A stretch of DNA of 64,000 nt, from NCBI GenBank assembly GCA_026197075.1, contig JAPHQV010000015.1:62001-126000 (forward strand), read 5' to 3'. Origin of the DNA: Gammaproteobacteria bacterium. GTDB lineage: Bacteria > Pseudomonadota > Gammaproteobacteria > DSM-19610. Below, one piece after another: positions 59 to 62,677 of the stretch. A program made the translations under genes and the position numbers. The notes under the pieces are model-generated. The model saw only the letters and a program-made list of their open reading frames with translations, was not told the DNA's origin and did no database searches. How positions within the stretch are numbered: position 1 is the first letter of the stretch; every line of letters begins with the position of its first letter.

Positions 59-1006
59 TTACTGCGGCCCATATCCATACCCGTATCCGTATCCGTATCC
101 ACCGTAGTAGTCCGCACCTCCCGGTCGCTTGCTCTTGTTGAGCACCAATCCCACCACTTCACAGGATTCCAGCATACTCAGAGCCTCTTTCAACACCGGC
201 TGTGAGGTACGGGATTCCTCCACCACCACCACGATCTGCCCCACCAGGGTTGCCAGCACCCGCGCTTCCGTCGTCATCAGCAGGGGCGGCGAATCGAAAA
301 TGATGATGCGATCCGCATACCGGGTCGCCAGTTCCTCGGCAAAATTGCGCATGGCCCCACTCGCCAGCAACTCGGTGGACTTCACATGCCGTTGCCCGGC
401 CGGCAGAAGCATCAGGTTCGGGACATCGGTCTTGATGAGGACATCCTTCAGTTTCACCTTGCCGCTCAGCACATCGGTAAAACCGTCCTTGGCCTGCACA
501 CCCAGTCGGTTGCTGACCTCCGGCTTGGCAACGTCGGCATCGATCAGCAACACGCTCTTTTCCATCTCCATGGCCAGGCTCATGGCCAGGTTGATGGAGG
601 TAAAGGTCTTGCCTTCTCCGGAAATCGAACTGGTCACCATGACCAGGTTTGGGTGGGTAACCGGTGAGGCCGCCAATCCGTTGATATGCATCAGCAGCGG
701 ACGCTTGATGTTACGAAATTGCTCGGAAATATGGGTATTGTGCTCGCCGCGGGGATCGATGACACCCATGGCCGTCAGGTGTTTCCAGTCCAGCTTAACC
801 CGGTTCGTTTCGGCCAGATCGGCCGGCAGCGAAGTGCCGGGGCCGTCGGCGCGGCCGTCCTGCGCACCCGCCTCGACCGGCTCCGCTACCGCCGCATCCG
901 CGGCGACCGGGCCAATTTCATCGTTTTTGACGCTGGCGCCCGACGGCAATGATGTTCCGTTGGCGAGGCCGCCGAGTTTTTCCATTGCTTTCTCGATGGT
1001 GCTCAT
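59..1006 (-). CDS. XrtA-associated tyrosine autokinase (BY-kinase)
   Basis: A 315-residue cytoplasmic P-loop tyrosine kinase of the CpsD/Wzc-C family, which phosphorylates its own tyrosine tail to control exopolysaccharide chain length and export. The long N-terminus (about 1-90) is variable. The Walker A motif SSISGEGKT lies at about 126-134, Walker A' is VLLIDAD and Walker B is IIFDSPPLL. The last 16 residues alternate Tyr and Gly (YYGGYGYGYGYG), the autophosphorylation cluster expected of BY-kinases. Its start codon abuts the stop of the upstream chain-length gene, so the two are co-transcribed and together equal a split Wzc. The N-terminal MSTIEKAMEKL type is that of kinases linked to XrtA exosortase loci. 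The operon probably continues past the left edge. Confidence 0.93.
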   Translation of the reverse strand: MSTIEKAMEKLGGLANGTSLPSGASVKNDEIGPVAADAAVAEPVEAGAQDGRADGPGTSLPADLAETNRVKLDWKHLTAMGVIDPRGEHNTHISEQFRNIKRPLLMHINGLAASPVTHPNLVMVTSSISGEGKTFTSINLAMSLAMEMEKSVLLIDADVAKPEVSNRLGVQAKDGFTDVLSGKVKLKDVLIKTDVPNLMLLPAGQRHVKSTELLASGAMRNFAEELATRYADRIIIFDSPPLLMTTEARVLATLVGQIVVVVEESRTSQPVLKEALSMLESCEVVGLVLNKSKRPGGADYYGGYGYGYGYGYGPQ

Positions 1007-2587
1007 CTAACCCAACCCCATTCTTGATGTGACTTTAGCCATGATGTCGAGATCCATGATCTCGATCATCGCCACGCCACCGTAGGCTGCGAGCAGCAAT
1101 AGCCACGAGGAGGTGAATGCCACAATCGCCACGCGACGCTTATTGATGTAGTCGTCTGTACGCACCATGGAAATCACTCCAAGGACCGGCAGCCCGGTAA
1201 TATCCTTCATCGATTTCGTATCATCGAATGTGGGACGAACCAGGGACAGCAGAAAGGCTGAACCCACACCCATCGCCAGGCTGCCCAGCATCACGATGGT
1301 CATGAACAGCAGCCGGTCCGGGCCGGAAGGCGAAAGTGGCACACGCGGCGGGTCGATCACCCTGAACTTGCTGCCATCACCGCGCACATCCGCGCTCTCC
1401 GAGATACTGGCGGCCTCGCGGCGTTGCAGAAGCTCGTTGTAATTACGCCGGTTGACATCGTAGTCGCGATTGAGGCGTTGCAGTTCCGCCTCGACCTGGG
1501 GCACCGTATCCACCAGATTCTTCAGCTCATCCACGCGACGCTGGTATTCCTGCACTCGCGCCTTCATGGATGCAATCTGGGAATTGGTTTCCGCCATCAT
1601 CATCTCCATCTGCTGCAGCATGGGATTGGAACTCGAAGCAGGAGCCAGTTCGGCCTGCTGTTGCTGCTCTTCCCTGCGCTGCTCCTCCAGGCTCTCGATC
1701 AGGCGACGCGTCTCGATGACATCGGGATGACTTTCGGTGTACCTCAACAGCATCTCGTCCATCTGCGACTGAAGATTCTGAATCCTCATATCCAAGGGCG
1801 AGGAGTACCCGCCCGCGGCACCAGGGAAGAGACTGTTCGAGGAATCATCGCGCTGCTTGATATCGGCCACCTGGCCCTGCTGGGAACGACGGCGGTTTTC
1901 CATCTCCTCCAGGGCCAGCCGGGCCTGGTCGAGATCAGCCAGGGCGGCCTGCAGTCGCCCGTAATAATCCTGCCCGGAACCCGGCATCAGGCCGACATTC
2001 TGACGCTTGAATTCCGCCAGTCGTTGTTCCGCGATGGTGAGCCGCTGCTCGTACTCGCGGATCTGTTCATCGAGGAATTTTTGCGCCATCTGGGTTCCCG
2101 TGCGGCCTTCGCCCAGCGCACTTTCCACCCAGATGGTGATGATGGATTGCACCACCCGCCGCGCCAGCTCACGGTCCTCGTGCTCGTAGGAAATGGTATA
2201 CAGGTTTTCACCGCGATCGACCTTGGCGATACGCACACCCTTGCCCAGGCTGTCCAGCAGGGCCTCCTTGGCGCCCGGCGTGGTAACCGTGATATCCAGG
2301 TCCGTCATGCGGGAAAGCTTTTCCAGGTTGGGGCGGCTTAGCAGGGTCCGCGTCATCAGCTCGACACTGCGACGTGAATCCGCCGATATCGCCAGACCGC
2401 GCAGAAGGGGCTGCAACACAGACTGGGTATCGATGTGAACACGTGCCGACGCCTGGTACTGATCGGGCATGCGCATGATCATGGCCCACCCGATCAGGCA
2501 CACCACCCACATGACGGCGAGCGCCACCCAGCGGAAACGCCAGACACCCCGGGCATAGCGCAACAGTTCTTCAAGTAATTCGTGCAT
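1007..2587 (-). CDS. XrtA-system polysaccharide chain-length determinant (Wzz/GNVR)
   Basis: A 526-residue inner-membrane polysaccharide co-polymerase. One N-terminal transmembrane helix lies at about 17-36 and a second at about 425-447, with further hydrophobic sequence at 485-505. The periplasmic part between them is long and coiled-coil-rich, with many Gln/Glu/Arg heptads at about 170-385. The pre-TM proline segment RVIDPPRVPLSPSGPDR is the usual Wzz signature. It lacks the cytosolic kinase domain, which is encoded by the next gene. It starts 39 bp after the stop of the export lipoprotein gene, in the same operon. The length and domain plan match the chain-length proteins of PEP-CTERM/XrtA exopolysaccharide loci. 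Confidence 0.92.
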   Translation of the reverse strand: MHELLEELLRYARGVWRFRWVALAVMWVVCLIGWAMIMRMPDQYQASARVHIDTQSVLQPLLRGLAISADSRRSVELMTRTLLSRPNLEKLSRMTDLDITVTTPGAKEALLDSLGKGVRIAKVDRGENLYTISYEHEDRELARRVVQSIITIWVESALGEGRTGTQMAQKFLDEQIREYEQRLTIAEQRLAEFKRQNVGLMPGSGQDYYGRLQAALADLDQARLALEEMENRRRSQQGQVADIKQRDDSSNSLFPGAAGGYSSPLDMRIQNLQSQMDEMLLRYTESHPDVIETRRLIESLEEQRREEQQQQAELAPASSSNPMLQQMEMMMAETNSQIASMKARVQEYQRRVDELKNLVDTVPQVEAELQRLNRDYDVNRRNYNELLQRREAASISESADVRGDGSKFRVIDPPRVPLSPSGPDRLLFMTIVMLGSLAMGVGSAFLLSLVRPTFDDTKSMKDITGLPVLGVISMVRTDDYINKRRVAIVAFTSSWLLLLAAYGGVAMIEIMDLDIMAKVTSRMGLG

Positions 2588-2626
2588 CTTGTCCCTTAGA
2601 TAACTTCCGTTGCTGTGCGCTTCGGC

Positions 2627-3250
2627 CTAGAACCAGGCTTCCGGGATGATCAGGATATCGCCGGGCAGCATGCGTACATTGGCGGAAATGTCACCGGTGT
2701 TGAGCAGGTCACTCAGGCGCACCTGGAACTGTTGCGGGGAACCATCCTGGTTACGCACGATGGTCGCCCGGTTGCCGGCGGCATACTGAGTGATCCCGCC
2801 CACGGCGATCATGACATCCAGCACGGTCATGCCATCCTGGAACGGCAGGGCCTGGGGATCCGCCGCCTGGCCCACGACGCGGATCTGCTGGTCGAAGGGA
2901 CCCTTGAAGCCCCCCACCATGACGGTGACCACCGGGTTCTTGATGTAGGTTCCCAGTTCCTTTTCCATATCGCGGGCCAGTTGGGTGGGCGTCTTGCCGC
3001 TGGCCTGAACATCCTCGACCAGCGGCGTGGTGATACGGCCATCGGGGCGCACGGTGGTGGACGCGGAAAGCTCGGGGTTGCGCCAGACGAAGATATTGAT
3101 GGAGTCTCCCGAGCCGATGATATACATGGGCGTTTCGTCCACCGTGCGCGCCTCGCTGGTCGCGACGGGATAGCGACTGGCGCAACCGGCCAGCAGTTGC
3201 AGCAGAAAAATCACGGAAACTACGGTCAACAAGGTGCGAGTGCGGTTCAC
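2627..3250 (-). CDS. Polysaccharide export lipoprotein (Wza-like, XrtA system)
   Basis: Outer-membrane polysaccharide export protein. A GTG start at 3250 is chosen because AGGAGG lies about 9 bases upstream. An in-frame ATG at 3289 would add 13 residues and put that Shine-Dalgarno inside the gene. The signal peptide ends in the lipobox LAGC, so the mature protein is a lipoprotein. A Poly_export domain follows (YIIGSGDSINIFVWRNPELS...VRPDGRITTPLV), then an SLBB-like segment (IRVVGQAADPQALPFQDGMTVLD cut here for length). The C-terminus LPGDILIIPE is typical. It is the first gene of the operon leading to the chain-length protein and autokinase, which together form the export route for the XrtA-linked polysaccharide. 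Confidence 0.92.
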   Translation of the reverse strand: MNRTRTLLTVVSVIFLLQLLAGCASRYPVATSEARTVDETPMYIIGSGDSINIFVWRNPELSASTTVRPDGRITTPLVEDVQASGKTPTQLARDMEKELGTYIKNPVVTVMVGGFKGPFDQQIRVVGQAADPQALPFQDGMTVLDVMIAVGGITQYAAGNRATIVRNQDGSPQQFQVRLSDLLNTGDISANVRMLPGDILIIPEAWF

Positions 3251-3769
3251 GGGAATACCCCCTCCTGGATCATGAATTGGACTATGCATCTAGTGTTCTT
3301 GGTAACTGCTTATAATAGCAGCATATTCCCCTGCCAGGGTCCAGCCGGAAATGAAATCCCCGCTCGGGCGGAACCGGCGCCTGACGACCAGCTCCGGCCC
3401 TCCGTCCAGCCCCACCCTGCGCGATCCAGCATAAATGATGAATAGATTCAAATAGCTGTACCTACAACGTGGTATGTAGTCCACATTGTAGCGGTCAAGG
3501 TCAGGTAATCTTCAGCGGCCAACGGGCCTGGCTGATTTGGATTTGAATCATTTTTGCTTCCCCATTGCCATGGTAGCGCGAACCCGTCCAAATCGGAATA
3601 GTCCCGAGCCGCGATACCCGACTAAAGTTTCGGGGCTTCAGCCGGCTACAGCGATAAGCTATGGTACGGACAGCCCCGCAGCCGGGGCATCGGCGGCACA
3701 CAGGGACGAACCCATGACAGGCCCGGCAATCCTTCTCCCCTCCCCCTCCTCTTCAGGGCAACAATTGCC
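3251..3769. other. Divergent intergenic region, no gene seen
   Basis: About 520 bp separate the exopolysaccharide operon (minus) from the ABC permease pair (plus). The short open frames here look non-coding in composition. An inverted repeat CTACA-8 nt-TGTAG sits at 3462-3479 and could be a regulator site. A minus-strand TGGCAG...TGCT stretch around 3310-3340 resembles a sigma-54 promoter but its spacing is one base too long. I see no convincing terminator. Confidence 0.5.
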
Positions 3770-4999
3770 ATGTCACCCCTGACCCTGGTCCAGACAGGCG
3801 CCAAGAACGTCCTGCGCCAGGTAGGTCGTACCAGCGCGGCCCTGACGGCGGTGGTGTTCGGCGTGATCTCGATGATACTGGCCGCCGGCTTCATCGACTG
3901 GAACCTGGAATTCGGCCGTGACCATTCCATCGAGTCCCAGCTGGGGCACCTGCAGGTCATGAAGCCGGGTTTTCTCGAACGGGGCCGGTCGGATCCCCAC
4001 GGCTACCTGCTGCCCGGCCAGGCCGGCACGGACCTTGACGATCTCGAGGCCCTGCCCGGCTACCGGGTCGATGCCCCGCGGTTGTTGATCTCCGGCCTGG
4101 CCAGTTCCGGGGACATCACCCTGTCCTTCATCGGCGAAGGCGTGGACCCGGAAGCCGAATCGATCCTCTCAGCGGCCCTGCGTTTTCCGCAGGGACGCAA
4201 CCTGGTACCTGGAGAGGCCAATTCGGTGATCGTCGGCAGCGGGCTCGCCGAGAACCTGCAGGCCGGCATCGGCAGTAGCCTGGTACTGATCGCCAACACG
4301 GAAACGGGTGGCATCAGCGCGGTGGAGGCACGCGTCGTCGGCATTTTCGAGTCCATCTTCAAGGCCTATGACGACGTCGCCCTGCGCATCCCCCTGCCCC
4401 TTGCCCGGGAGCTCATGCGCACGGAGGGCGAGCACCTGCGCCTGGTGCTGCTCGAGCGCATCGACCAGACCGAGGCCGCCGTACAACAATTGCGCGACAC
4501 CCTGCCCGAAGACCGCTACCAGGTCGTGCCCTGGCAGAATATGTCCGATTTCTACAACAAGAGCGTGGAACTCTTTTCCAAACAGGTTGGGGTGATCTAT
4601 CTCATCATCGCCGTCATCATCGTGCTGGCCATCTCCAACACCATGACCATGGCGGTGATGGAGCGGGTCGGCGAGATCGGTACCCTCATGGCCCTGGGCA
4701 ACCGCCGCCGGGACATCCTCGGCATTTTCCTGGCGGAAGGCTGTATCCTGGGTCTGCTCGGGGCTTTGGTGGGCCTGGTGCTGGGTGTTTTGCTGGGCCT
4801 GCTCATCAGCGCCATCGGCATCCCCATGCCACCCGGGCCGGTGATGGCCTGGGGATATGAGGCCGGCATTCGGCTATCGGTGGAAAACCTGACCAAGGCG
4901 GCGGTCATTGCCCTGGTCACCACGGTGCTGGCCAGCCTCTATCCCGCCTGGAAGGCATCCCGGCTGGGCATCGTCGATGCCTTGCGGACCCGGCAGTAG
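3770..4999 (+). CDS. ABC transporter permease, FtsX/LolC-MacB family (1 of 2)
   Basis: A 409-residue inner-membrane permease. It has one N-terminal transmembrane helix (about 20-40), a periplasmic MacB-PCD-type domain (about 45-275), then three C-terminal helices (about 278-300, 325-350, 375-395). The FtsX core signature NTMTMAVMERVGEIGTLMALG precedes the second helix (one residue omitted). The family acts as type VII ABC machines that move lipids or lipoproteins or do mechanical work in the periplasm. It is followed after 9 bp by a homologous permease. The only ATPase gene of matching type in the window is at 10094-10771. The initiator ATG has only a weak Shine-Dalgarno. Confidence 0.88.
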   Translation: MSPLTLVQTGAKNVLRQVGRTSAALTAVVFGVISMILAAGFIDWNLEFGRDHSIESQLGHLQVMKPGFLERGRSDPHGYLLPGQAGTDLDDLEALPGYRVDAPRLLISGLASSGDITLSFIGEGVDPEAESILSAALRFPQGRNLVPGEANSVIVGSGLAENLQAGIGSSLVLIANTETGGISAVEARVVGIFESIFKAYDDVALRIPLPLARELMRTEGEHLRLVLLERIDQTEAAVQQLRDTLPEDRYQVVPWQNMSDFYNKSVELFSKQVGVIYLIIAVIIVLAISNTMTMAVMERVGEIGTLMALGNRRRDILGIFLAEGCILGLLGALVGLVLGVLLGLLISAIGIPMPPGPVMAWGYEAGIRLSVENLTKAAVIALVTTVLASLYPAWKASRLGIVDALRTRQ

Positions 5000-5008
5000 G
5001 ACTCGCCC

Positions 5009-6226
5009 ATGACCCAACTACTCCGACTTGCCCTGCGCAACCTGTTCCGCAACCGCGTGCGCAGCATGATCACGCTGGGGGCGATCCTGTTCGGTGTCTG
5101 CGGCCTGATCCTGTCCGGCGGTTTCGTGCGCGACATCTTCCTGCAGCTGGGCGAGGCCCTCATACACTCCCAGAGCGGCCACGCCCAGATCGGCCATGAG
5201 GCGGTCTTCAGCTACGGCTCCCGTTCCCCGGAACGCTACCTGCTGGAAGCACCGGCTGAACTGCGCGCAGCCATCACGGACCAGCCGGAGGTCAAGGATG
5301 TGATGGCGCGCATCACCTTTTCAGGACTGCTCAATAACGGCAAGACGGACTACGCCATCGTCGGCGATGGCGTGGAACCGGAGGGGGAAAATCGCCTGGG
5401 CACCCACTTGCACCTGGTCAGCGGACGCATGCTGGAAGATGACGACCGTTTCGGCATCATGCTCGGCGAAGGGGTCGCGAGCGCCTTGCAGCTCGGGGTC
5501 GGCGACCAGGCCACCCTGCTGGCCAATACCGTCCATGGCGCCTTGAACACCCTGAGCCTGGAAGTGGTGGGCATTTTCCAGACCTTCTCCAAGGACTTCG
5601 ATGCCCGCGCCATCCGCATCCCCCTGTCCGCGGCCCAGGACCTGCTGCTTACGGACGGGGTAACGAAATTCGTGATCACCCTCCACGACACCCCGCTCAC
5701 CGGGGAATTCACGGCGCGCATGCGCCAGCGGCTGCCTGCCCCACTGGCGGTCCATGACTGGAAACAGCTCAATGACTTCTACGGAAAAACCGTCGACATG
5801 TACAATCAGCAATTCGGTTTTCTCAAGGCCATGGTACTGCTGATGGTATGCCTGAGCGTGATCAACACCGTGAACATGAGCCTGATGGAACGTACCTGGG
5901 AGTTCGGCACCATGCGTGCCCTGGGCAACCGCAATCGCACCATTGCCGGACTGATCATGAGCGAAGCCGGCATGCTGGCCCTGCTGGGCGCGAGCCTGGG
6001 ACTGGCACTGGGCCTTTCCCTGGCCATGATCATCTCCGGCATCGGCATCCCCATGCCCCCGCCGCCCAATGCGGACTTGAGTTACGACGCCTATATCCGC
6101 ATCGTACCGGAGGTGTTGCTGGAGTCCTGGCTGATCGGCCTGGGGGCTACCCTGCTGGCGGCCCTGTACCCGGCATGGCGTTTCACCCGAATCCCGATCA
6201 TCGATGCCTTGCGCACCCGTGAATAA
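5009..6226 (+). CDS. ABC transporter permease, FtsX/LolE-MacB family (2 of 2)
   Basis: A 405-residue homologue of the preceding permease with the same plan: an N-terminal helix (about 20-40), a periplasmic domain, and three C-terminal helices around 275-395. Both proteins end in ...YPAW...ID/VDALRTR. Core motif: NTVNMSLMERTWEFGTMRALG (from NTV to MRALG). Two non-identical permeases in tandem suggest a heterodimer like LolC/LolE. The start lies 9 bp after the previous stop, and the beta-barrel gene begins 22 bp downstream, so the three form one transcription unit. The substrate is unknown. The location in an exosortase island suggests an envelope lipid, glycolipid or lipoprotein. Confidence 0.88.
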   Translation: MTQLLRLALRNLFRNRVRSMITLGAILFGVCGLILSGGFVRDIFLQLGEALIHSQSGHAQIGHEAVFSYGSRSPERYLLEAPAELRAAITDQPEVKDVMARITFSGLLNNGKTDYAIVGDGVEPEGENRLGTHLHLVSGRMLEDDDRFGIMLGEGVASALQLGVGDQATLLANTVHGALNTLSLEVVGIFQTFSKDFDARAIRIPLSAAQDLLLTDGVTKFVITLHDTPLTGEFTARMRQRLPAPLAVHDWKQLNDFYGKTVDMYNQQFGFLKAMVLLMVCLSVINTVNMSLMERTWEFGTMRALGNRNRTIAGLIMSEAGMLALLGASLGLALGLSLAMIISGIGIPMPPPPNADLSYDAYIRIVPEVLLESWLIGLGATLLAALYPAWRFTRIPIIDALRTRE

Positions 6227-6248
6227 TATCCATAAAGGAACCTGCCAC

Positions 6249-7706
6249 ATGGAATCGCACCGCCGCCACGTACCGAAAACCTGCCTGCTGTCCGGTCTCG
6301 CCATCCTGTTGCCACTCACGATCCTGGCCCCGTTGCCATCGCTGGCGGACAATGGAGTGCCCTCCGGCATGGAGGACCTGTTCGCCGAACCGCCCACGGA
6401 CGCTCCCGCCGACGCGGCCGCCCCGACTCCCGGCCTGGACGCGTCACTGGAGGACATGTTTGCCGAAGACAGCCCGCCGGAAGACGCGCGTGCGGCAGCG
6501 CCCTTCACGGGCTTCTTCCAATCGGAACTGGCCTACAGCACCGAAAGCCCCAGTCACTGGTCCAAGTTCCGCAACCTGCTGGAGATCGGCACCGGTGGCG
6601 ACCTGGATAACGGCATGCGCTGGAAGCTGAGCGGCCGCTTGAGTTACGACGCGGTCTTCGACCTGGAGGATGATTTCTACCCCAAGGCGGTACGCAACGA
6701 TCGTCGCCAGGAGGCCTGGCTGCACGAGACCTACCTGGACATCCCCGCCGGTGAATGGGCCCTGCGACTCGGACGCCAGCACATCATCTGGGGCGAGATG
6801 GTGGGACTGTTCTTTGCCGATGTGGTCTCCGCCCGCGACATGCGCCAGTTCGTCGCCCAGGATTTCGAGCTGTTGCGCATACCCCAGTGGGCGGTGCGCG
6901 CCGAACATTTCGGCGAGTCGGTACACCTGGACGCCATCTGGATCCCGTACATGACCTATGATGAGATCGGCCGCCCCGGTGACGATTTCTTCCGCCTGCC
7001 GGTGCCACCCGAACCCGGCTACGGGATCGCCATCCTGGGCGAGGAAAAACCCGCCAACACCCTGTCCAACAGCGCCTTCGGCCTGCGCCTGTCACGCATG
7101 ATCAATGGTTGGGATCTGACCGGCTTTTACTATCGCAGCATGGACGCCGCACCCGCCTTCCGTCGCACGGTCATGGGACAGACCCTGGTATTCCAACCGG
7201 AACATTTTCGTATCCAGCAGTTCGGCACCACCCTGTCCAAGGACATCGGTCGCAGCCTGATCCTCAAGGCCGAGGCGGTCTATACCCTGGACAAGCGCTT
7301 CTCGGTTACCGACCTGAACGACACGGACGGATTGGTCAAGCAGGACATGCTGGATTACGTGGTGGGACTGGAACACACCTTCGACAGCGGCGCACGGATC
7401 AATGTGCAGTTATTCCAGCGCTGGTTCCCGGACCATGTGGACAGTATGATCCCCGACGAGGTGGAAAGCGGCTACAGCCTGTATGCCACCACCGAATGGC
7501 TGAATGGCCGCCTGCGTCCGGAAATAACCTGGATACAGGGCTTCAACCAGGGCGACTGGCTGGCACGCCCGAAACTCAACTGGCATTTTGCACCAAACTG
7601 GCGCGCAGCCCTGGGCGCGGATATCTTTGATGGTCGCCCCACCACCCTGCTGGGACAATTCGATGGTGCCGACCGGGTGTACGCGGAACTGCGTTACAGT
7701 TACTAG
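6249..7706 (+). CDS. Predicted outer-membrane beta-barrel (DUF1302-like)
   Basis: The start at ATG 6249 is supported by AAAGGAA just upstream; the reading frame is also open from 6204. The signal peptide has a hydrophobic core LLSGLAILLPLTILAPLP and likely cleavage after LAD or SLA. A Pro/Ala/Asp-rich linker then carries two copies of an acidic-aromatic motif, MEDLFAE and LEDMFAE, about 25 residues apart. From about residue 90 to the end there are alternating amphipathic strands, the phrase RLGRQHIIWGE, and a terminal aromatic strand ELRYSY typical of BAM-dependent barrels. The resemblance is to the DUF1302 outer-membrane family, but that name rests on memory. Its stop codon TAG lies inside the end of a repeat (7703-7724). 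Confidence 0.75.
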   Translation: MESHRRHVPKTCLLSGLAILLPLTILAPLPSLADNGVPSGMEDLFAEPPTDAPADAAAPTPGLDASLEDMFAEDSPPEDARAAAPFTGFFQSELAYSTESPSHWSKFRNLLEIGTGGDLDNGMRWKLSGRLSYDAVFDLEDDFYPKAVRNDRRQEAWLHETYLDIPAGEWALRLGRQHIIWGEMVGLFFADVVSARDMRQFVAQDFELLRIPQWAVRAEHFGESVHLDAIWIPYMTYDEIGRPGDDFFRLPVPPEPGYGIAILGEEKPANTLSNSAFGLRLSRMINGWDLTGFYYRSMDAAPAFRRTVMGQTLVFQPEHFRIQQFGTTLSKDIGRSLILKAEAVYTLDKRFSVTDLNDTDGLVKQDMLDYVVGLEHTFDSGARINVQLFQRWFPDHVDSMIPDEVESGYSLYATTEWLNGRLRPEITWIQGFNQGDWLARPKLNWHFAPNWRAALGADIFDGRPTTLLGQFDGADRVYAELRYSY

Positions 7707-7724
7707 GAGTCTGTCGGACTTGAG
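7703..7724 (+). repeat. Solo MITE end (left-type) overlapping a stop codon
   Basis: One copy of the 22-bp terminal repeat that begins CTAGGAGTCTGTCGGACTTG. It differs at one base from the left end of the complete element at 9882, and the identity continues for 8 more bases (ACTGATCT). The TAG of CTAG is the stop codon of the beta-barrel gene. No matching right end lies immediately downstream. Confidence 0.85.
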
Positions 7725-7765
7725 ACTGATCTACTGCGACGGTGGCTGCCTGGCAGCCCCATGGA

Positions 7766-8506
7766 TCAGCCGTCCGCCAGATCCGTCTTGATGGAAAACA
7801 GCAGGGCCTCCATCTCGGGATGCAGGCCCTGGAACAGGCCTTCGCGCGAGATATAATAGGCCGCCCGCTGGCCGTGATATTCCATGACGCCACCAGCCTG
7901 CTGGAATTCGATACCAAAACGCTTCAAGTGCCGCGCCAGGCGCGGCTCCATCATGGCAAACACCCCGTCCAGGCCCGATTCCAGGCCGATGGAAGTGGCC
8001 GCCATGTACAAACCCAGTGCGATGTGAGGACTGCGACGCTGATCATCCTGCCGCTCCTCTTCTCCCGTGGTGCCAACCGGGCAGCTTTGCTCGCCTTTGC
8101 GACGCCGGAAGCGGGCAGGAACCGCCAGCCGTGAAATCTCCCCGTAGCGTGCGCCACGCGCACGCAGGTCGTGCATCAGGGCAGGATCGAGGCTTTGCCA
8201 GCAGTATTTTTCCAGGGGCAGGCGGGTCTGCTGATCCAGGGCATGGCGCGCAATCAGGCGCACGCAGCCGGCGTACTCGCCACTACCACGGTGCCGCAAC
8301 AGGCAGTGGCGGGCCCGGTCATCGAACTCATCCCGCTCGCGCTGGTCGGGGAAACGACTGGCGTCCTCGTAGGCCAGTTCCCGGCAGTAAACCTCGTAGC
8401 GAATCCGGTACACCTCGTCCTGCAAGGCAGCGGTATCGGCCGCGAGTACCTGAAAGTAATCATGGAAGGATGCTGACAAGGAACCGGACTCCTGCACTTT
8501 ATTCAT
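7766..8506 (-). CDS. PEP-CTERM/exosortase-associated acyltransferase (paralogue 1)
   Basis: A 246-residue GNAT-like N-acyltransferase related to autoinducer and N-acyl amino acid synthases. Diagnostic stretches are EVYRIRYEVYCRELAYED near the N-terminus (about 30-47), the acidic FPDQRERDEFDDRA, and GEISRLAVPARFRRR at about 121-135. These are characteristic of the exosortase-associated family TIGR03694. An internal insert (about 136-155) is charged and poorly conserved between the two paralogues here. The donor would be an acyl-ACP or acyl-CoA and the acceptor is unknown. It is divergent from paralogue 2 across a 607-bp region. The gene is convergent with the beta-barrel gene. Confidence 0.88.
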   Translation of the reverse strand: MNKVQESGSLSASFHDYFQVLAADTAALQDEVYRIRYEVYCRELAYEDASRFPDQRERDEFDDRARHCLLRHRGSGEYAGCVRLIARHALDQQTRLPLEKYCWQSLDPALMHDLRARGARYGEISRLAVPARFRRRKGEQSCPVGTTGEEERQDDQRRSPHIALGLYMAATSIGLESGLDGVFAMMEPRLARHLKRFGIEFQQAGGVMEYHGQRAAYYISREGLFQGLHPEMEALLFSIKTDLADG

Positions 8507-8745
8507 GCTCTACCACTCTTGCGCATCTCACTGGACCATCGTCAGCCAACTGGTACCCGGTCGCCAACATCCCTGACCCGACAACAATGACGTTCTTGTA
8601 AGAAATGGCGGAAAAAATCCCGAAACCTTTACTGAAACGGGAAAATAAACACCGTTATCCCAGTTATACGGTGACGCTGCCTGGACGGCTCACAGCGCGA
8701 CCGTCACCAAATTGAGACACTAATAATCGTAATTTATCAATGAGT

Positions 8746-8762
8746 TGTAAATTTTGTTGCAA
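8746..8762. promoter_or_regulatory. Partial PrsR-type upstream motif
   Basis: TGTAAA-TTTTG-TTGCAA has the same outline (TGTnnA, 5-nt spacer, TTnnnA) as the motif before both PEP-CTERM genes, but the right half is degenerate. It lies about 110 bp upstream of the sigma-54 promoter at 8869, a usual distance for an enhancer-binding protein. Confidence 0.35.
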
Positions 8763-8868
8763 AACCTGTCCCCGTACAAAGACAATTTAGCCGTTCTTTG
8801 CCGGGTATTATCCATGTCGGTATTTCTTGCAGCCGGTAAGCCCTTGATTCGCCGTTGTCCTGATCAGT

Positions 8869-8884
8869 TGGCCCATATTTTGCT
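8869..8884 (+). promoter_or_regulatory. Sigma-54 (-24/-12) promoter for acyltransferase 2
   Basis: TGGCCCATATTTTGCT has GG and GC at exactly the required 12-bp offset and matches the consensus TGGCACGnnnnTTGCW except at two positions. The transcript would start near 8895, about 220 nt upstream of the acyltransferase ATG. The local NtrC-family activator PrsR is a plausible driver. Confidence 0.65.
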
Positions 8885-9113
8885 ACAGTATCCGAGTATA
8901 GTCTTCAAAAGAGTAGTAACCATGCAAGGGATTCGCCGCTTGACTGTGTTCAGTCCTGCCACACCGCCCGGCACCAACGACACGGGTCTTATCCTGTGAA
9001 GAGTATAGTGCCTACACTAACTCCCGCCGGGCACGCACATTTCACGCCGCCTTCTTCTCAGTCGTCCAAAACCGCCAGACCGGTCCCGCTGGTTCCTGGC
9101 ACCGGGGGTACAC

Positions 9114-9872
9114 ATGGATCGTTCGTGCATGTTTGATCATGAATACGAGGCTATTCTCGCCGACACCGACGAAGCACGGCGCATCCATCACCAGATCCGA
9201 TACCAGGTCTTTTGCGAAGAGACCGGTTTCGAGGACGGACGCGCCTTCCCATCCAACGAGGAGTTTGACCAGTGGGACCGGCACGCCGTGCCCTTCATCG
9301 TACGCACACGCCAGACACAGGAATGGGTCGCCACCCTGCGCCTGATACTGCCCCGGGCGAGCCTGCCTTCCCAGCAATTATGCATGCTCGACCGCGGCGC
9401 AATCGCCAAGATCAAACCCCATGAGGTCGGCGAGATTTCCCGCCTGTGCGTGCTCCCCACCTTCCGGTGCCGTCGTCGCGCACCGGGAAGGCGGCGCAAC
9501 GGCGTGGTGAAGCACCAGCACGAGTCGGAAATCACCCTGGGCCTGTTGCGTGCCGCTGCGGCCTACAGCCGGCGTATGAATATTCGTTACTGGTATATGC
9601 TGACCACGGGTGGGCTCGCCCGGCTCATGAACCGCATGCATCTGCCCCTGCATCCCATCGGCAGTGGTATCGAGCATCGCGGCACACGCTATCCCTTCCT
9701 GGCCCATATCGAGAAAAGCCAGGCGCGCGCAGAGAATATTTCACCGGAGTTCGCACGACTGTTCAGCCATCCCAACCCCTATATACATTACAGCGCACTC
9801 CATGATGAAGGATCCGAACCGGAACCGGCCTGGGATGAACTGGAGGGGCTGCAACTGGGTTGCATCGCCTGA
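9114..9872 (+). CDS. PEP-CTERM/exosortase-associated acyltransferase (paralogue 2)
   Basis: A 252-residue GNAT-like N-acyltransferase, a paralogue of the protein at 7766-8506. Conserved blocks are RRIHHQIRYQVFCEETGFED (about 22-41), AFPSNEEFDQWD, and the shared GEISRL at about 105-110. A basic insert (RRRAPGRRR) follows GEISRL and is followed by a hydrophobic helix and the ITLGLLRAAA segment. The chosen ATG at 9114 has no strong Shine-Dalgarno. ATG 9129 (MFDHEYE) is equally possible and would fit the family start better. It is probably transcribed from the sigma-54 promoter at 8869. It ends 10 bp before the MITE-like element. Confidence 0.88.
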   Translation: MDRSCMFDHEYEAILADTDEARRIHHQIRYQVFCEETGFEDGRAFPSNEEFDQWDRHAVPFIVRTRQTQEWVATLRLILPRASLPSQQLCMLDRGAIAKIKPHEVGEISRLCVLPTFRCRRRAPGRRRNGVVKHQHESEITLGLLRAAAAYSRRMNIRYWYMLTTGGLARLMNRMHLPLHPIGSGIEHRGTRYPFLAHIEKSQARAENISPEFARLFSHPNPYIHYSALHDEGSEPEPAWDELEGLQLGCIA

Positions 9873-9881
9873 AACAGGCCT

Positions 9882-10097
9882 CTAGGAGCCTGTCGGACTT
9901 GAGACTGATCTCGGCAACTGCTCCATGCGTTGCTCTACCTCCTGCATCCATGCAGTCGTACTGCGCCGGCGGGAGAGCGGCTCAAATTTCCCTGATTTCT
10001 CGTTGCGTAGGATCACTATGCGCCTCGAAATCATGAAAATTTGTTCTCGCTCTCCCACCTTGCTCGCTACGATCGCTCAAGTCCGACAGGCTCCTAG
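9882..10097. mobile_element. MITE-like palindromic element, 216 bp
   Basis: It is bounded by a perfect 22-bp inverted repeat at 9882-9903 and 10076-10097, starting CTAGGAGCCTGTCGGACTTG. Inside is a second inverted pair, GGGAGAGCG at 9971-9979 and CGCTCTCCC at 10048-10056, followed by imperfectly matching inward sequence (CAAATTT...TGATTTC). Nearly the whole element could therefore fold back on itself. It holds no coding frame of meaningful size and no transposase, so mobilisation in trans is the likely origin. The right terminal CTAG supplies the TAG stop of the adjacent ABC ATPase. No target-site duplication is obvious in the flanks. Confidence 0.85.
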
Positions 10098-10771
10098 CGC
10101 AACATTCCGTCTTCGATCTGTACCACCCGATCCGCCATCTCCATCACCTTCGGGTCATGGGTGGAGAAAATGAAGGTGGTACCCTTTTCGCGGTTGATGG
10201 CATGCATCAACTCCAGGATGCTGGTACCGGTCTTGTGATCCAGATTGGCAGTGGGTTCGTCGGCCAGCACGATGGCCGGACGGGCAATCAGGGCCCGGGC
10301 GATGGCCACCCGCTGGCGCTGGCCACCGCTGAGCTGGTTGGGACGGTGGGTGGCGTAATCGCCGACCCCGACCAGTTCCAGGTAGCGCTGCACCCGGGCC
10401 CGGCGCCGGGCCTTGTCGAAGCGGAACTGGAGCAGTGGGTATTCGACATTCTCCGCGGCGGACAATACCGGCAACAGGTTGAAGGTCTGGAACACAAAGC
10501 CGATCTTCCTGGCCCGCAGGTCCGCCAGTTCGTCCGGGGTCTTGCCGGCCACATCCTCCCCATCGATGAGGATGTGGCCCGTACTGGGGCTGTCGATACA
10601 ACCGATGAGATTGAGTAAGGTGGATTTACCGCTGCCAGAAGGCCCGGCGATGGCCAGGAATTCGCCCTCCTCCACATCCAGGCTGGTTTCACGCAGGGCC
10701 TGTACGCGCTGTTCGCCGAGCGCATAATCCTTGCTAACGCCTCGCACCTCAACCACTGCTGCCATGATCAT
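10094..10771 (-). CDS. LolD/MacB-type ABC transporter ATPase
   Basis: A 225-residue cytoplasmic ATPase. The Walker A motif GPSGSGKST lies at about 41-49, the Q-loop is [14 protein letters not shown] at about 92-105, the signature is [15 protein letters not shown] at about 143-157, Walker B is [12 protein letters not shown] and the H-loop is FSTHD. The [17 protein letters not shown] phrase marks the MacB/LolD/FtsE branch that partners FtsX-type permeases. It should power the two permeases at 3770-6226, from which acyltransferase genes and a MITE-like element now separate it. It is divergent from the LolA-like gene, and its TAG stop lies within the MITE end. Length and C-terminus are normal for the family, so the insertion did not obviously truncate it. 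Confidence 0.92.
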
Positions 10772-10900
10772 TCATTCATTAGTGTGAAGGGTTTCATGCT
10801 AATGGATCGAGGTAGTTTGCACAATCACACTGAAAATCCCGCCGCCCTGGCCGATAATGATTCCGAACGGTCCGGAAGACGGCATACATATGGAATACAC

Positions 10901-11650
10901 ATGAAAACGACTCCACTGCTGCAGATTTGTTGTCTCGCCCTCTCCCTTTGCGTATTCATTCCGGCCGGCGCGAAGGAAAACGTCGATGCCGCGCGCATCG
11001 TCGAGAATGCCGATCAGATCCGTTTCCCGGCCCAGGGCTTCCAGGTGGATGCCCGGGTCATCTCCATCACCGACGGCGTACGCAGCGTCCATCAATACCG
11101 CATCCTGTCCCAGAACAAGGACAACACCATCGTCATGACCACCGCTCCGGCATCGGAGCGGGGACAGACCATGCTGGTGAAGGGGCAGGACCTCTGGGTG
11201 TTCATGCCCAATGTCTCCCAGGCCGTGCGCCTTCCCCTGTCGCAACGGCTGACCGGCCAGGTGGCCAACGGCGACCTCGCCCGCGCCAATTTCAGCGGCG
11301 ACTACAATCCGGAACTGCTGCGCACGGAAACCATCGAGGGCAGGGACTACCACGTGCTGGAACTGACGGCCGTGAACCGTCGTGTCACCTATCACCGGGT
11401 AATGTACTGGGTGGAGAAGGACAGCCATCGTCCCTTCAAGGCGGAGTTCTATGCCTTGTCTGGCAACCTGATCAAGACCGCCCACTATCGTGATTATGTG
11501 ACCATGGCCGGGGTGGAACGCCCCTCGAAACTCTATATGCAGGACCCGCTCAAGAGCGGGTCACACTCGCTGATGGAGTACAGCAACATGCAGCTGCGGG
11601 ACCTGCCCGACCGTTTCTTCACCCACAACTACCTGCGTCGCCTGCAGTAG
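10901..11650 (+). CDS. LolA-like outer-membrane lipoprotein-sorting protein
   Basis: A 249-residue periplasmic carrier of the LolA/LolB-fold family (COG2834 type). ATG 10901 is preferred because a clean signal peptide follows (MKTTPLLQICCLALSLCV then IPAGAKE); the frame is also open upstream to 10784. The motif IVENADQIRFPAQGFQVDARV and the phrase LWVFMPNVSQAVRLPLSQRL are typical of the family that carries lipids or lipoproteins through the periplasm. It is divergent from the LolD-like ATPase, with about 130 bp between start codons. Together with the ATPase, two permeases and barrel it makes a complete inner-to-outer-membrane route, although the genes are scattered over 8 kb. Confidence 0.85.
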   Translation: MKTTPLLQICCLALSLCVFIPAGAKENVDAARIVENADQIRFPAQGFQVDARVISITDGVRSVHQYRILSQNKDNTIVMTTAPASERGQTMLVKGQDLWVFMPNVSQAVRLPLSQRLTGQVANGDLARANFSGDYNPELLRTETIEGRDYHVLELTAVNRRVTYHRVMYWVEKDSHRPFKAEFYALSGNLIKTAHYRDYVTMAGVERPSKLYMQDPLKSGSHSLMEYSNMQLRDLPDRFFTHNYLRRLQ

Positions 11651-11659
11651 AATCCCGCG

Positions 11660-11674
11660 CCGACAGGCTCCTAG
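11660..11674 (-). repeat. Solo MITE end fragment (right-type)
   Basis: CCGACAGGCTCCTAG is identical to the outer 15 bases of the right end of the 9882-10097 element. Bases 11671-11673 are the stop codon TAG of the minus-strand TPR gene. It lies between convergent genes only 20 bp apart. Confidence 0.8.
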
Positions 11675-14448
11675 CGGTTCAGTTCCCGCAGCAATTCCCG
11701 CGCCGATTCCGCGAGCACGAATTGCTGATGCTCCGCCAGGAGGTTCACCAGCTCCCGCCGTGCCGCCGCCGGCTGGCCATCGTGCTGCTGCCACAAGGCA
11801 TCCAGGTAGCGTGCCTCCGGGCCGCGATGGGTGCGGATCAGGAGTTCATCGATGAAGTCCCGCGCTTCCTTCCCCTTGTCCTGGGCCAGCAAGGCGCGCA
11901 CCAGGGTATCCAGCACGTAGGGATGATCCGGCAGTGCTTCCTGGGCGCGTCGGGCATGGGCCTCCGCGCCCAGGGGATCCTCTTCCATCAGCAGGTGAGC
12001 CAGGTTGTTGAGTGCCAGCACCTGTCCGGGCGCCAGCGCGATGATCCGGCGATAGAGCTCCATGGCCTGCCGGCGCTCATCCTGTAGCAGGGCGTAATTG
12101 GCCCGCGCAAGCAGCAGATGAATATCGTCGGGATGTTCGACCGCCCAGTCCTCCAGGACGTCCACGGCCGCTTCCCGTTCACCGGCACTCCATTTCACCC
12201 CGGCCAGCTCCACCACCAGGGCGGTGGACGGTGCACGGGCCAGGGCTTCGCCATAGGCCCGGGCCGCTCGCTCAGGCTGGTTCCGGGCCATGGCGAGGGT
12301 ACCTTCCAGTACATGGGTGCGCGGATGATCCCCCAGGTCTTCCTTCAGGGATTGCAACACCCGCTCGGCCTCGACGAGATTCCGCTCCTGGACCAGGACA
12401 TGTCCCCACTCCAACCTGGCCTCGATATGACCGGGTTCCACTTCCAGGGCCCGGGCAAGCTGGCGTTTCACGCAATCACGGTCATCGGTGCGGTCACACA
12501 CCAGCGCCAGCCAGTAGTATCCCTGTCCGTGCTCCGGCACAACATCCACCAGGGCCGTGAATTCCGCCCGCGCACCGGGCCAGTTCTGGAGGGCCAGATA
12601 GGACTCGCCGACCACGGCCAGCAGGCCGGGGTTGCGGCCATGATGCTCGCGCAGTGGCAACAACAGGGTCAGCGCGCGTTCCGGTTGGCCCTTGCGTAAA
12701 TGATGGCGGGCCAGTTGGACGGAAAAATCGACCTTCCCGGGATGGGCCATGATGGCCCTGTTCAGGGTTTCCACCAGTCCCTCCTCATTGCCCGCGCGGG
12801 ATTCCAGCAAGGCCAGGTACTGGAGGGTGGGAGCATGCTCCGGGTGGGCCTTGAGGGTGTTTCCGTAATAGTCGCGGGCCGCGGCGTAATCCTTGTCCTC
12901 CATGGCCAGAACCGCCAGGCGGTGATTGGCCGCCGGGTCGCCAGGATCCAGGGTCAACGCAGCCTCGAAGGACGTCCGTGCCCCGTCCCGGTCGGCAAGA
13001 CCCAGCTGGCCCATACCCTTGAGTACCAGGGGCATGGGGGCCTCGGGATACCGCTTCGCAAACGCCTCGGCTGCCGCCACCGCCTCGCCAAAGGCACCCT
13101 GATGCAGGTGGGCCATGACCAGAATGATATCCGTCTGCGCCAACTCCGGGGAACTGGCGAGGATGTCTTCCAGCACGCGCACCCCGGCATCATAGTCACC
13201 GCCGAGCAGCATACCCAGTCCCAGCTGGGCCTGCATTTGCGGGGAATCGGGATGCAGCTCGGCGAGCTTGCGCAAATGCTCCATGGCCTCGTCGGTGCGT
13301 CCCAGCTGCATCAGGGAAGAAGCCAGCAGCAGCAAGGCACGGGTATTCTCAGGGTCACGGGCCAGGATGGGTTCCACCAGCTGCACCGCGCTATCCGCCT
13401 CGCCCCGCTGCAGGCGTGCCGTCGCCAGCAGGATGCGGCCGGGAACATAGTTGGGATTGCGGGCAAAGGCACGCGCCAGATACTGTTCCGCCTGCTGGGT
13501 ATTGCCGGCGCCCAGGTTGGCCAAGCCAAACTGCAGCACCGCATCCCGGTAGTCTTCCACCTTGCCGAGCAGGCTTTCGAAGTGAGCCCGGGCATTGCCG
13601 TAGCGCTGTTCCTGCAGGGCGAGAATCCCCTCGGCATAGTCCAGGGCCGGGTGACGCTCATTGAGCTTGCGCATCCGGTCTATATCCTGGCGTGCCTCGT
13701 CGAAGCGTCGCAGGTAGCTCAGCAGAACGGCACGTTTTTCCAGGTTGCCCAGTTGGTCACGGCGCGCACCCAAGGCCTTGCCATAGTGCTCCACCGCCGC
13801 TTCCAGATCCCTCTGGTAATGGGCGAGATCGCCGCGCAGGCTCCAGGCGGCACTGTCATCCTCTTCCAGGCGCAACGCCTCTTCCAGCAGTTGTTCCGCG
13901 CGGGAAAACTCCCGACGCACGGTGGCCACCAGGGCCTGCCCCACCAGGGGCGCCGCGGTGGCCGGGGAAAGGTCGCGGGCCCGGGCGAAGCTTTGCTCAG
14001 CCTCGCGCACCATGCCGCGACGCATATAGGCCTCACCCTGGATACCCAAGACCTCCGCCCATTGCAAATCCGTAAGCGTGGGTGGCCGCTGCACGGCAAT
14101 CACCTCATCGAATTTGCGCTGCTGATACCAGGCGCGGGCAAGCGATACCTGCAAGGCCTCCAGCGGTACGCCCAGTTGCCGGGCGTGCTGTAATTCCTTC
14201 TCGGCACTGGCCCCATCGCCGGCATCGAGATACAGCTCGCCCAGCAGCAAGCGGGCATCGGCATTATCGGGATTCTTCGCCAGGGCGTTCTTGAGCTCGA
14301 TCACCGCCGCGCGCAGTTTCCCCTGCTCCACCTGCTCACGGGCCCGGTATACATATTCCACATCACTGAGCGATTGGCCCACATCGCAGGCCGACAGCCA
14401 GACTGCCAGCGGCATCACCAGCACCAGTTTCAAGCATCGAGACTTCAT
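11671..14448 (-). CDS. prsT: PrsT-like TPR lipoprotein of the PEP-CTERM system (paralogue 1)
   Basis: A 925-residue periplasmic or outer-membrane lipoprotein. The signal peptide ends in the lipobox LSAC (Cys about 20). About 20 tandem TPR units follow from residue 33 to the C-terminus. The opening phrase AAVIELKNALAKNPDNADAR and then GASAEKELQHARQLGVP identifies the PrsT/TIGR02917 family of exosortase loci, a likely scaffold for polysaccharide or PEP-CTERM protein assembly at the envelope. A second full-length paralogue lies at 17588-20350. The stop codon comes from a solo repeat end, and the last TPR still looks complete. The gene has its own upstream spacer of 130 bp. Confidence 0.88.
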   Translation of the reverse strand: MKSRCLKLVLVMPLAVWLSACDVGQSLSDVEYVYRAREQVEQGKLRAAVIELKNALAKNPDNADARLLLGELYLDAGDGASAEKELQHARQLGVPLEALQVSLARAWYQQRKFDEVIAVQRPPTLTDLQWAEVLGIQGEAYMRRGMVREAEQSFARARDLSPATAAPLVGQALVATVRREFSRAEQLLEEALRLEEDDSAAWSLRGDLAHYQRDLEAAVEHYGKALGARRDQLGNLEKRAVLLSYLRRFDEARQDIDRMRKLNERHPALDYAEGILALQEQRYGNARAHFESLLGKVEDYRDAVLQFGLANLGAGNTQQAEQYLARAFARNPNYVPGRILLATARLQRGEADSAVQLVEPILARDPENTRALLLLASSLMQLGRTDEAMEHLRKLAELHPDSPQMQAQLGLGMLLGGDYDAGVRVLEDILASSPELAQTDIILVMAHLHQGAFGEAVAAAEAFAKRYPEAPMPLVLKGMGQLGLADRDGARTSFEAALTLDPGDPAANHRLAVLAMEDKDYAAARDYYGNTLKAHPEHAPTLQYLALLESRAGNEEGLVETLNRAIMAHPGKVDFSVQLARHHLRKGQPERALTLLLPLREHHGRNPGLLAVVGESYLALQNWPGARAEFTALVDVVPEHGQGYYWLALVCDRTDDRDCVKRQLARALEVEPGHIEARLEWGHVLVQERNLVEAERVLQSLKEDLGDHPRTHVLEGTLAMARNQPERAARAYGEALARAPSTALVVELAGVKWSAGEREAAVDVLEDWAVEHPDDIHLLLARANYALLQDERRQAMELYRRIIALAPGQVLALNNLAHLLMEEDPLGAEAHARRAQEALPDHPYVLDTLVRALLAQDKGKEARDFIDELLIRTHRGPEARYLDALWQQHDGQPAAARRELVNLLAEHQQFVLAESARELLRELNR

Positions 14449-16712: not shown

Positions 16713-17576
16713 TTATTTCACCTGCGCTAGCAGGCGTTTCACATACCAGAACATGAAACGCTGCAATGGGTGGCGGTTGCCAAAGGGGCGCCAGGTCCTG
16801 ATGAGACGGTTGCGGTAGGCATCGAAGTGCAGGCCCCGGGGCGCCGTAACCACTTCGCCTCGCCCCAGCAGTAATTTCAGCACATTGGTACAGGCCACGC
16901 CGGCGGCGATCTCGATCCCCATGGCGGTGGACGGCACCTTCTTTTGCAGGAAATTCACCGAGCTGCGATCCACCAGGTACTTGCGCTGCTGTACCGAGGG
17001 CGACACCCCGATCACGAACTTGATGATCTGGTCCTCGAAGGAGTAGCCGTCCAGGCAAAAATACTCCTCGAAACTCATCCCGCCCGGCATGAACACAAGG
17101 AAGGCCGTACCCATGCCCATGGGTGCGGCCGTAATGGTGGGAATCCCTTTCTCGTAGCAACGGGCGAACACGGCGCGGCGGATGTCGAGGGCGAAGATAT
17201 CCAGGCTGTCGACATAGATATCCACCCCGTCCAGGAAATCATCGAGGTTCTCCAGGCTGATGCCCTGCGGGAAACGGCGAATATCCAGCTCGGGATTGAT
17301 ATCCCGGATCACCCCTTCCATCACCTCCGCCTTCGGTCGACCCCAGGTGGCCATGGAGGCACCGTACTGGCGATTGAAATTGGGCAGGTCGAAGTCATCC
17401 AGGTCGGCGATATTGAACGCCCCGATACCCAGCCGGGACAGCACGATGAGGTGACTGCCCCCGACCCCGCCCAACCCGCCGATGGCCACCCGCTTGTGGC
17501 GCAGGGTCTCCTGCTCTTCACGGGTCACCCAGCCGATGTTACGGGAGAAGGCCTGGTGGTAGTCGAAGCGGTTCAT
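16713..17576 (-). CDS. ThiF/MoeB/HesA-family (E1-like) adenylyltransferase
   Basis: A 287-residue Rossmann adenylating enzyme. The nucleotide-binding loop VAIGGLGGVGGSHLIVLSRLG is at about 30-50 (quoted up to HLI). The conserved DLDDFDLPNFNRQYGA holds the acidic residues and the Arg finger, and ATWGRPKAEVM follows. ATG 17576 gives the typical family N-terminus (MNRFDYHQAFSRNIGW). A GTG at 17591 that overlaps the prsT-2 stop as GTGA is the alternative. It lacks the paired CxxC zinc sites of many ThiF/MoeB enzymes, and no ubiquitin-like or sulfur-carrier partner is encoded nearby. It is the last gene of the prsK-prsR-prsT operon. Its substrate is unknown; a C-terminal-carboxylate activation role is known only for the family. 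Confidence 0.82.
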   Translation of the reverse strand: MNRFDYHQAFSRNIGWVTREEQETLRHKRVAIGGLGGVGGSHLIVLSRLGIGAFNIADLDDFDLPNFNRQYGASMATWGRPKAEVMEGVIRDINPELDIRRFPQGISLENLDDFLDGVDIYVDSLDIFALDIRRAVFARCYEKGIPTITAAPMGMGTAFLVFMPGGMSFEEYFCLDGYSFEDQIIKFVIGVSPSVQQRKYLVDRSSVNFLQKKVPSTAMGIEIAAGVACTNVLKLLLGRGEVVTAPRGLHFDAYRNRLIRTWRPFGNRHPLQRFMFWYVKRLLAQVK

Positions 17577-17587
17577 TACCGTGCCTG

Positions 17588-61917: not shown

Positions 61918-62677
61918 GACGACTCCGGTTGGTCGGTTCCGCCACACCCCCCGCTCCCAGCAGGCCGCGGCGGGGACGCCAGCGCGGCCGTAGGGGTGTC
62001 AGGGTGGCCACCCGCTTGCGCGCCAGTAGAAAGTAGGCCCCGGCCAACAGGCTCATGGGGCGCCGCGACTCCAGGATGCGCAATCGATCCAGGGCCCGCT
62101 CACTCTGCAGGGGCGGCCGTTGAAACAGGGGCACCACGCGCAGGGTATCGAAGCCCAGGAGGGACAACCAGTCGCGCAATCGTCCCGGACCGATGCCCTG
62201 CAGGCGCCAGGGAACGGGATGCCACCAGCGCGCCACCAGGCCCCACAGGCCCCACCAGCTGACGGGGTTGAAGCCCAGGATCAGCACATGCCCCTCCGGC
62301 ACCAGGCAACGTTCCACCTCTCGCAACACCTGGTGGGGGTCCCGGGAACGTTCCAGGACATGGGGCAGGAGGATGGCATCCAGGGTGTCCGTGCCAAAGG
62401 GCAGCCGCTCCGTCTCTCCCTCAAGGCCACAGCCCTCGCTGCCGCTGCAAGGGGAATGAGACTGCAGAATGATGTGGGAGATCCGGCTGCTGGCCAGGGC
62501 CTCCTGCGGGCAGGGCGGATCGAGGGCAAGCAGATGATATCCAAAGAGATCCGGAAGATGCTGCGCCAATTGTTCCTGTTCCCGTCCGGCCATGGCCCGG
62601 CCCAGGGGCGTGCGGTACCAGGCGCGCAATTCGGACAGTGTGGGGCGGGGTCGGGGGTCTCGGCGTGGGCTGTCCAT
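61904..62677 (-). CDS. Class I SAM-dependent methyltransferase (mltD-rnhA linked)
   Basis: A 257-residue methyltransferase of the type found between mltD and rnhA in gammaproteobacteria (YafS-like). Motif I is unusual: the first glycine-rich loop region is weak, whereas [20 protein letters not shown] and [22 protein letters not shown] are clear. The N-terminus [20 protein letters not shown] is diagnostic. The C-terminal region is very Arg-rich. ATG 62677 or 62692 is the start. Its substrate is unknown. Confidence 0.82.

Follow-up and report, generated by a model that had tools for sequence, protein, structure and literature searches.

What do Lol-like transport proteins carry when their genes lie in an exosortase locus, interleaved with genes for N-acyltransferases? 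The question is raised by positions 3770–11650 of a 64,000-nucleotide stretch (positions 62,001–126,000 of contig JAPHQV010000015.1, assembly GCA_026197075.1), here called the window, from a gammaproteobacterium of the DSM-19610 lineage. Two permeases, an outer-membrane β-barrel, an ABC ATPase and a periplasmic carrier are encoded there. The set recurs across many bacteria beside genes for fatty-acyl amino-acid synthases and is, therefore, probably an exporter of such small lipids. We put at roughly two in three the probability that the five proteins act together as a single dedicated exporter, Lol-like but distinct from the housekeeping Lol system, for a lipid of the N-acyl amino-acid type. 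The physical assembly of the parts, the direction of transport and the cargo are what we infer.

A preliminary description of this DNA had named the permease pair, the barrel, the ATPase and the LolA-like carrier, and all of them were identified at their positions by Pfam and NCBIfam profile matches. Permease 1 (3770–4999, + strand; 409 aa) and its paralog permease 2 (5009–6226, +; 405 aa) are LolC/LolE/LolF-like, FtsX-class subunits that match the Pfam families FtsX and MacB_PCD (3e-17 and 2e-13, respectively, for permease 1). They are followed by a DUF1302-like outer-membrane β-barrel with a signal peptide (6249–7706, +; 485 aa; PF06980, 2e-13). The ATPase (10094–10771, −) is of the LolD/MacB/DevA class (ABC_tran, 5e-35) and scores below cut-off with both the LolD and the MacB models. 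The LolA-like carrier (10901–11650, +; 249 aa; PF17131, 6e-50) also has a signal peptide, and its reading frame is open from 10784. Between barrel and ATPase lie two exosortase-associated N-acyltransferases, as had been proposed. Both match TIGR03694 above its cut-off of 112 bits: acyl1 (7766–8506, −) with 243 bits and acyl2 (9114–9872, +) with 165 bits. The first also matches FeeM (PF21926, 1e-9) and Autoind_synth (6e-7), and is a candidate N-acyl amino-acid synthase. The earlier view of a transport route split into pieces fits only in part: many relatives have the five genes side by side, and only that for LolA is on the opposite strand. A scan for promoters and terminators gave a signal at background level.

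To explore how widely the set is conserved, a profile of the barrel (A1) was used to gather 324 relatives from the genome collection, and the best 80 of these were examined together with as much as 10 kb of flanking sequence in either direction. Leaving out a near-identical sister gave 79 loci, 52 of them well flanked. The carrier was present in all 52 well-flanked loci, the ATPase in 51 and all five parts in 41. Within 10 kb of these 41 complete sets, we found a ThiF gene in 31 cases, a synthase in 22 and an exosortase-system gene in 33; at least one of the three was present in 40 of the 41. XrtA scored above cut-off in 44 of the 50 genomes holding barrel loci in this wider collection.

A survey of 370 genomes of the class, each at least 90% complete, gave a similar picture. 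The barrel subfamily is sharply delimited (scores of at least 499 bits, with the next at 262) and occurs in 14 genomes; the permease 2 subfamily occurs in exactly the same 14 and no others (Fisher 1e-25), with one copy broken at a contig end. XrtA was found above cut-off in 13 of the 14, compared to 75 of 370 overall (Fisher 5e-9), and TIGR03694 in 13 of the 14, compared to 55 of 370 (Fisher 6e-11); these Fisher values treat genomes as independent and ignore shared ancestry, and the 14 genomes represent 6 families. Within the XrtA-positive genomes alone, the barrel occurs in 12 of 35 with TIGR03694 and in 1 of 40 without it (p 3e-4). Barrel and acyltransferase genes are direct neighbors in several families. 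The preliminary description had asked whether, across genomes with XrtA, the set keeps company with TIGR03694-type acyltransferases more often than expected, or occurs mostly apart from exosortase genes, and the counts speak for the former. The five-gene set is not a local accident but a conserved association across genomes.

The neighboring enzymes point to the kind of product. In the loci of relatives, N-acyl amino-acid synthases of the FeeM type (PF21926, 1e-53) are found repeatedly, as are an OxzB-like ThiF protein and a nitroreductase, either fused or adjacent; ThiF is present in 41 and nitroreductase in 33 of the 79 barrel loci. A ThiF of the PRK08223 type occurs in 9 of 11 barrel-positive genomes, compared to 31 of 295 overall. 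These recurrent neighbors support the proposal, first made from the window, that an acylated molecule may be exported. N-acyltransferase, ThiF and nitroreductase together make acyl-oxazolones, encoded by oxzAB in Pseudoalteromonas rubra and tyzABC in Mycobacterium tuberculosis (PMC10404671), and the same enzyme trio has been proposed for N-acyl dehydrotyrosines (PMC12479983). The window encodes a stand-alone ThiF/E1-like protein (16713–17591, −) that resembles the ThiF portion of cyclases of the OxzB/TyzB type (PRK08223 type; NF006077, 432 bits, cut-off 266). A complete oxazolone pathway is not supported for the window, since its ThiF gene has no nitroreductase partner and a search of this genome gave no nitroreductase match, although an empty search is by itself weak evidence. 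A simple N-acyl amino acid, or some other derivative, may thus be what is made here. The NCBIfam model PRK14852 (NF011425), named only "hypothetical protein", apparently covers FeeM-like synthase, ThiF and nitroreductase portions; judged from its profile, it could possibly represent an oxazolone pathway in one protein.

A second version of the locus also bears on the cargo. Where an XrtA-linked ThiF/synthase locus is without the ABC set, it encodes in about half of the cases an MMPL-family protein of ∼770 aa, whose closest NCBIfam model is HAE3, an RND pump. This protein is usually accompanied by a PF17131 carrier and a large DUF1302-like outer-membrane barrel (L192–L201, L212); in two loci (L202 and L204) the MMPL gene stands without a detected carrier or barrel. 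The 31 ThiF-positive genomes include 9 with the ABC set, 12 in which an MMPL pump is encoded close to the ThiF/synthase genes and none with both (chance 0.005), and no MMPL gene was found in the window or in any of the 80 ABC loci. Between the two versions, the carriers are homologs (hhalign probability 97.0%) and so are the barrels (99.5%), whereas the engines are unrelated. The engine of the exporter thus seems to be interchangeable between ABC and RND types. Of the arguments that the locus itself makes the amphiphile being carried, this exchange of lipid pump classes is the strongest, though it is indirect.

The permeases are structurally closest to the Lol machinery. Comparison of permease 1 with PDB sequences and profiles ranks LolE, LolF and LolC as the nearest solved chains, above MacB, and its AlphaFold model (predicted local distance difference test, pLDDT, 89) has LolE as the top Foldseek match (E 4e-24). 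The best PDB matches of permease 2 by profile are LolF and LolE. With the curated LolCE model, the two permeases score 111 and 98 bits, below the cut-off of 362, and the ATPase reaches 223 bits with the LolD model, below 308. Canonical LolF and LolD, both above these curated cut-offs, are encoded elsewhere in the same genome (C4:10039–11965), and so an assignment of the locus to the housekeeping Lol system was rejected. The locus does not have the makeup of MacAB-TolC, as the ATPase is encoded by a separate gene and LolE ranks over MacB; no MacA-type adaptor is present among the ten window proteins scanned by Pfam. By pairwise and profile alignments only, the Hook hairpin of LolC, which recruits LolA, is ∼4–5 residues shorter in permease 1 than in LolC and LolF. 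Carrier docking is, thus, not simply transferable from Lol.

The ATPase adjoins the barrel and LolA genes in nearly all relatives. Its nearest paralogs in the genome are flanked by permeases of their own. The closest of them (C59) already has two MacB-like permeases, and a partnership of the ATPase with other permeases was rejected accordingly. These paralogs, together with the canonical LolF and LolD, give no hint of a better pairing, which had been named as an outcome that would speak against the proposal. Distance correlations over 46 loci (permease–ATPase 0.69–0.73, ATPase–barrel 0.79, carrier–barrel 0.84, permease 1–permease 2 0.92) say little beyond shared ancestry, as the permease–ATPase values are no higher than those for carrier and barrel or ATPase and barrel.

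The carrier has an ortholog of solved structure in the LolA superfamily, NE2245 (3BUU; PDB match E 2e-84). A PDB sequence search with the barrel gave no match. Its AlphaFold model (pLDDT 78) has about 18 strands, and Foldseek returns only generic porins at a template modeling (TM) score of about 0.4, so the fold gives no indication of what the barrel does. Orthologs in other families are 41–53% identical. Residues 182–209 of the barrel (window about 6792–6875; WGEMVGLFFADVVSARD) are its most conserved stretch and have very low predicted confidence; the highly conserved motif WGEMVGLFFADVVSA-D is located in this segment, and MMPL-type barrels retain a related motif. The segment may serve as a plug or a docking loop.

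In the proposed pathway, the permease pair and the ATPase would pull an acylated amino acid out of the inner membrane. The LolA-like carrier would receive this amphiphile in the periplasm and ferry it to the DUF1302-like barrel, which would either place it in the outer membrane or release it through that membrane. The cargo would most likely be a fatty-acylated amino acid produced by the neighboring N-acyl amino-acid synthases, or a ThiF-processed derivative of it. In the related loci, an HAE3/MMPL RND pump takes the place of the ABC engine, with a homologous carrier and barrel kept.

The similarity of the permeases to LolE, LolC and LolF in both sequence and fold, the presence of a LolA-like carrier and the adjoining PrsT genes could alternatively indicate a second, specialized Lol pathway that takes particular lipoproteins, such as PrsT or other exosortase-associated ones, to the outer membrane or the surface. 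We consider this unlikely. Canonical LolF and LolD are present elsewhere in the genome, the set is present in only 13 of 75 genomes with XrtA, and among genomes with XrtA it follows the acyltransferases. In addition, the engine that takes this position in other loci, an HAE3/MMPL RND, belongs to a lipid/hydrophobe pump class, and the Hook of permease 1 is shortened. Slightly less likely still is that the set exports a lipid or polysaccharide intermediate for the exosortase/exopolysaccharide machinery itself, with the acyltransferases being incidental. XrtA does occur in nearly all genomes with the set (13 of 14 and 44 of 50), and export and chain-length genes are close by, but these are the XrtA locus's own, and the association with TIGR03694 holds inside XrtA-positive genomes. 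Since 62 of 75 XrtA-positive genomes do not have the set, it lies outside the XrtA core.

The architecture of barrel, LolA-superfamily protein and pump is also that of AmeABCD, the monoterpene exporter of Castellaniella defragrans, in which an HAE3 RND pump works with a DUF1302 barrel and with a protein of the LolA superfamily (PMC6394551). A comparable role here, in detoxifying efflux of exogenous hydrophobic compounds, is improbable, as the set is tied to synthase, ThiF and XrtA genes and not to catabolic islands. An extension of the proposed function would have XrtA of these bacteria attach PEP-CTERM proteins, at the outer membrane or surface, to the exported N-acylated amino-acid lipid, which would serve as their acceptor or anchor. 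It is the most speculative of the readings considered, and we regard it as a long shot. If it were true, the conveyor would deliver the anchor of the exosortase system.

Several observations do weigh against a dedicated exporter of N-acyl amino-acid-type lipids. The TIGR03694 gene is located on other contigs than the barrel in two genomes (G281 and G302), and one barrel-positive genome (G310) has no TIGR03694 match above cut-off. Neither engine was found in the stretch examined in 10 of the 31 ThiF-positive genomes, some of them near contig ends. The shared ancestry ignored by the Fisher values, the nitroreductase not found in this genome and the shortened Hook count on the same side.

Comparison with known systems helps to place the set. 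It shares with LolCDE/LolF-LolA(B) the class and fold of the permeases, a LolD-class ATPase, a LolA-superfamily carrier and the logic of transfer from inner to outer membrane, but differs in its scores below cut-off, its added outer-membrane barrel, its shortened Hook and its linkage to acyl-lipid synthases. The AmeABCD cassette likewise combines a DUF1302 outer-membrane protein, a LolA-superfamily periplasmic protein and one inner-membrane engine; however, AmeABCD has an HAE3 RND engine instead of an ABC engine, a DUF1329-type carrier, an exogenous monoterpene substrate and an extra periplasmic component, AmeC. Closer to home, three-gene operons encoding an ATPase, a permease and a LolA_like protein without a barrel are common in genomes of the class (L171–L184); they form a general Lol-like family. 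These operons contain the same three families in the same order, but usually have one permease gene, no barrel, and almost no synthase or exosortase genes in the stretches examined, with one weak acyltransferase match (L179). Genome G302 carries both this operon and the barrel-type set. The XrtA-linked set looks like a specialized relative of the three-gene operons, whose history would have involved doubling of the permease and addition of the barrel.

The recurrence of N-acyltransferase, ThiF-type and nitroreductase genes beside the exporter in relatives recalls oxzAB/tyzABC, whereas the ThiF of the window stands alone and its genome yielded no nitroreductase. In the papers searched on the oxzAB/tyzABC clusters, we found no ABC transporter, permease or LolA exporter of this kind. 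The tyz cluster of M. tuberculosis, which makes an N-acyl-tyrosine oxazolone, adjoins mmpL9, and its authors suggested export (PMC10404671). No description of the ABC/LolA/barrel set with synthase–exosortase linkage was found, in agreement with the preliminary description, in a literature search mostly outside subscription papers. The linkage of synthase and exosortase itself was published in 2011 by Craig, Cherry and Brady, whose work is cited in PMC4897644 and PMC11072679, and in a methanotroph, mutants in genes among which was an exosortase-linked N-acyl amino-acid synthase lacked the polysaccharide band (PMC11072679). The putative exporter would offer a mechanistic reason for this published, unexplained link. 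It also provides a concrete and widespread five-gene candidate for the export of N-acyl amino-acid-type lipids, and gives a likely pathway to NE2245, whose structure had been solved without a function. The ABC and RND engines, feeding homologous lines of carrier and barrel in the same type of locus, constitute a natural experiment.

The surroundings are those of an XrtA/PEP-CTERM locus, with XrtA and PrsT, PrsK, PrsR, TIGR03018 and TIGR03027 genes nearby. The XrtA gene itself lies outside the window, some 7 kb upstream of it (G000:C19:54095–54871, 367 bits). XrtA-linked exopolysaccharide genes for a tyrosine autokinase, a chain-length-type protein and an export protein occupy 59–3289 (−), upstream of the exporter genes. 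TIGR03018 and TIGR03027 match above cut-off at 59–1006 (−) and 2627–3289 (−), while the reading frame between them (1007–2587, −) is chain-length-determinant-like by its position and homologs. PrsR, PrsK, two PrsT and the ThiF-type gene are downstream. The two PrsT genes for tetratricopeptide repeat (TPR) proteins (11671–14448, −, and 17588–20350; TIGR02917, copies scoring 635 and 761 bits) lie in one locus, as they do in several relatives. A second exosortase-like gene is present in the genome (G000:C3:14585–15367), with 199 bits against the XrtA cut-off of 208.

The set had also been described as bounded by the ends of miniature inverted-repeat transposable elements (MITEs). There are genuine repeat ends at 7703, 9882, 10076 and 15472, where chance would give 0.01, and the genome contains 23 such ends. 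The MITE-like element at 9882–10097 (216 bp, with perfect 22-bp inverted ends) is, however, absent from the sister genome L059, which aligns to 4089–9879 and 10095–12588 of the window with an empty site between. The MITEs, therefore, neither bound nor carry the system, and the notion of a MITE-bounded island was rejected; the 216-bp element is a late passenger, not a boundary and no part of the system. The CTAG end of such MITE-like elements overlaps or directly adjoins the TAG stop codon of the barrel (7704–7706) and that of the ATPase (10094–10096).

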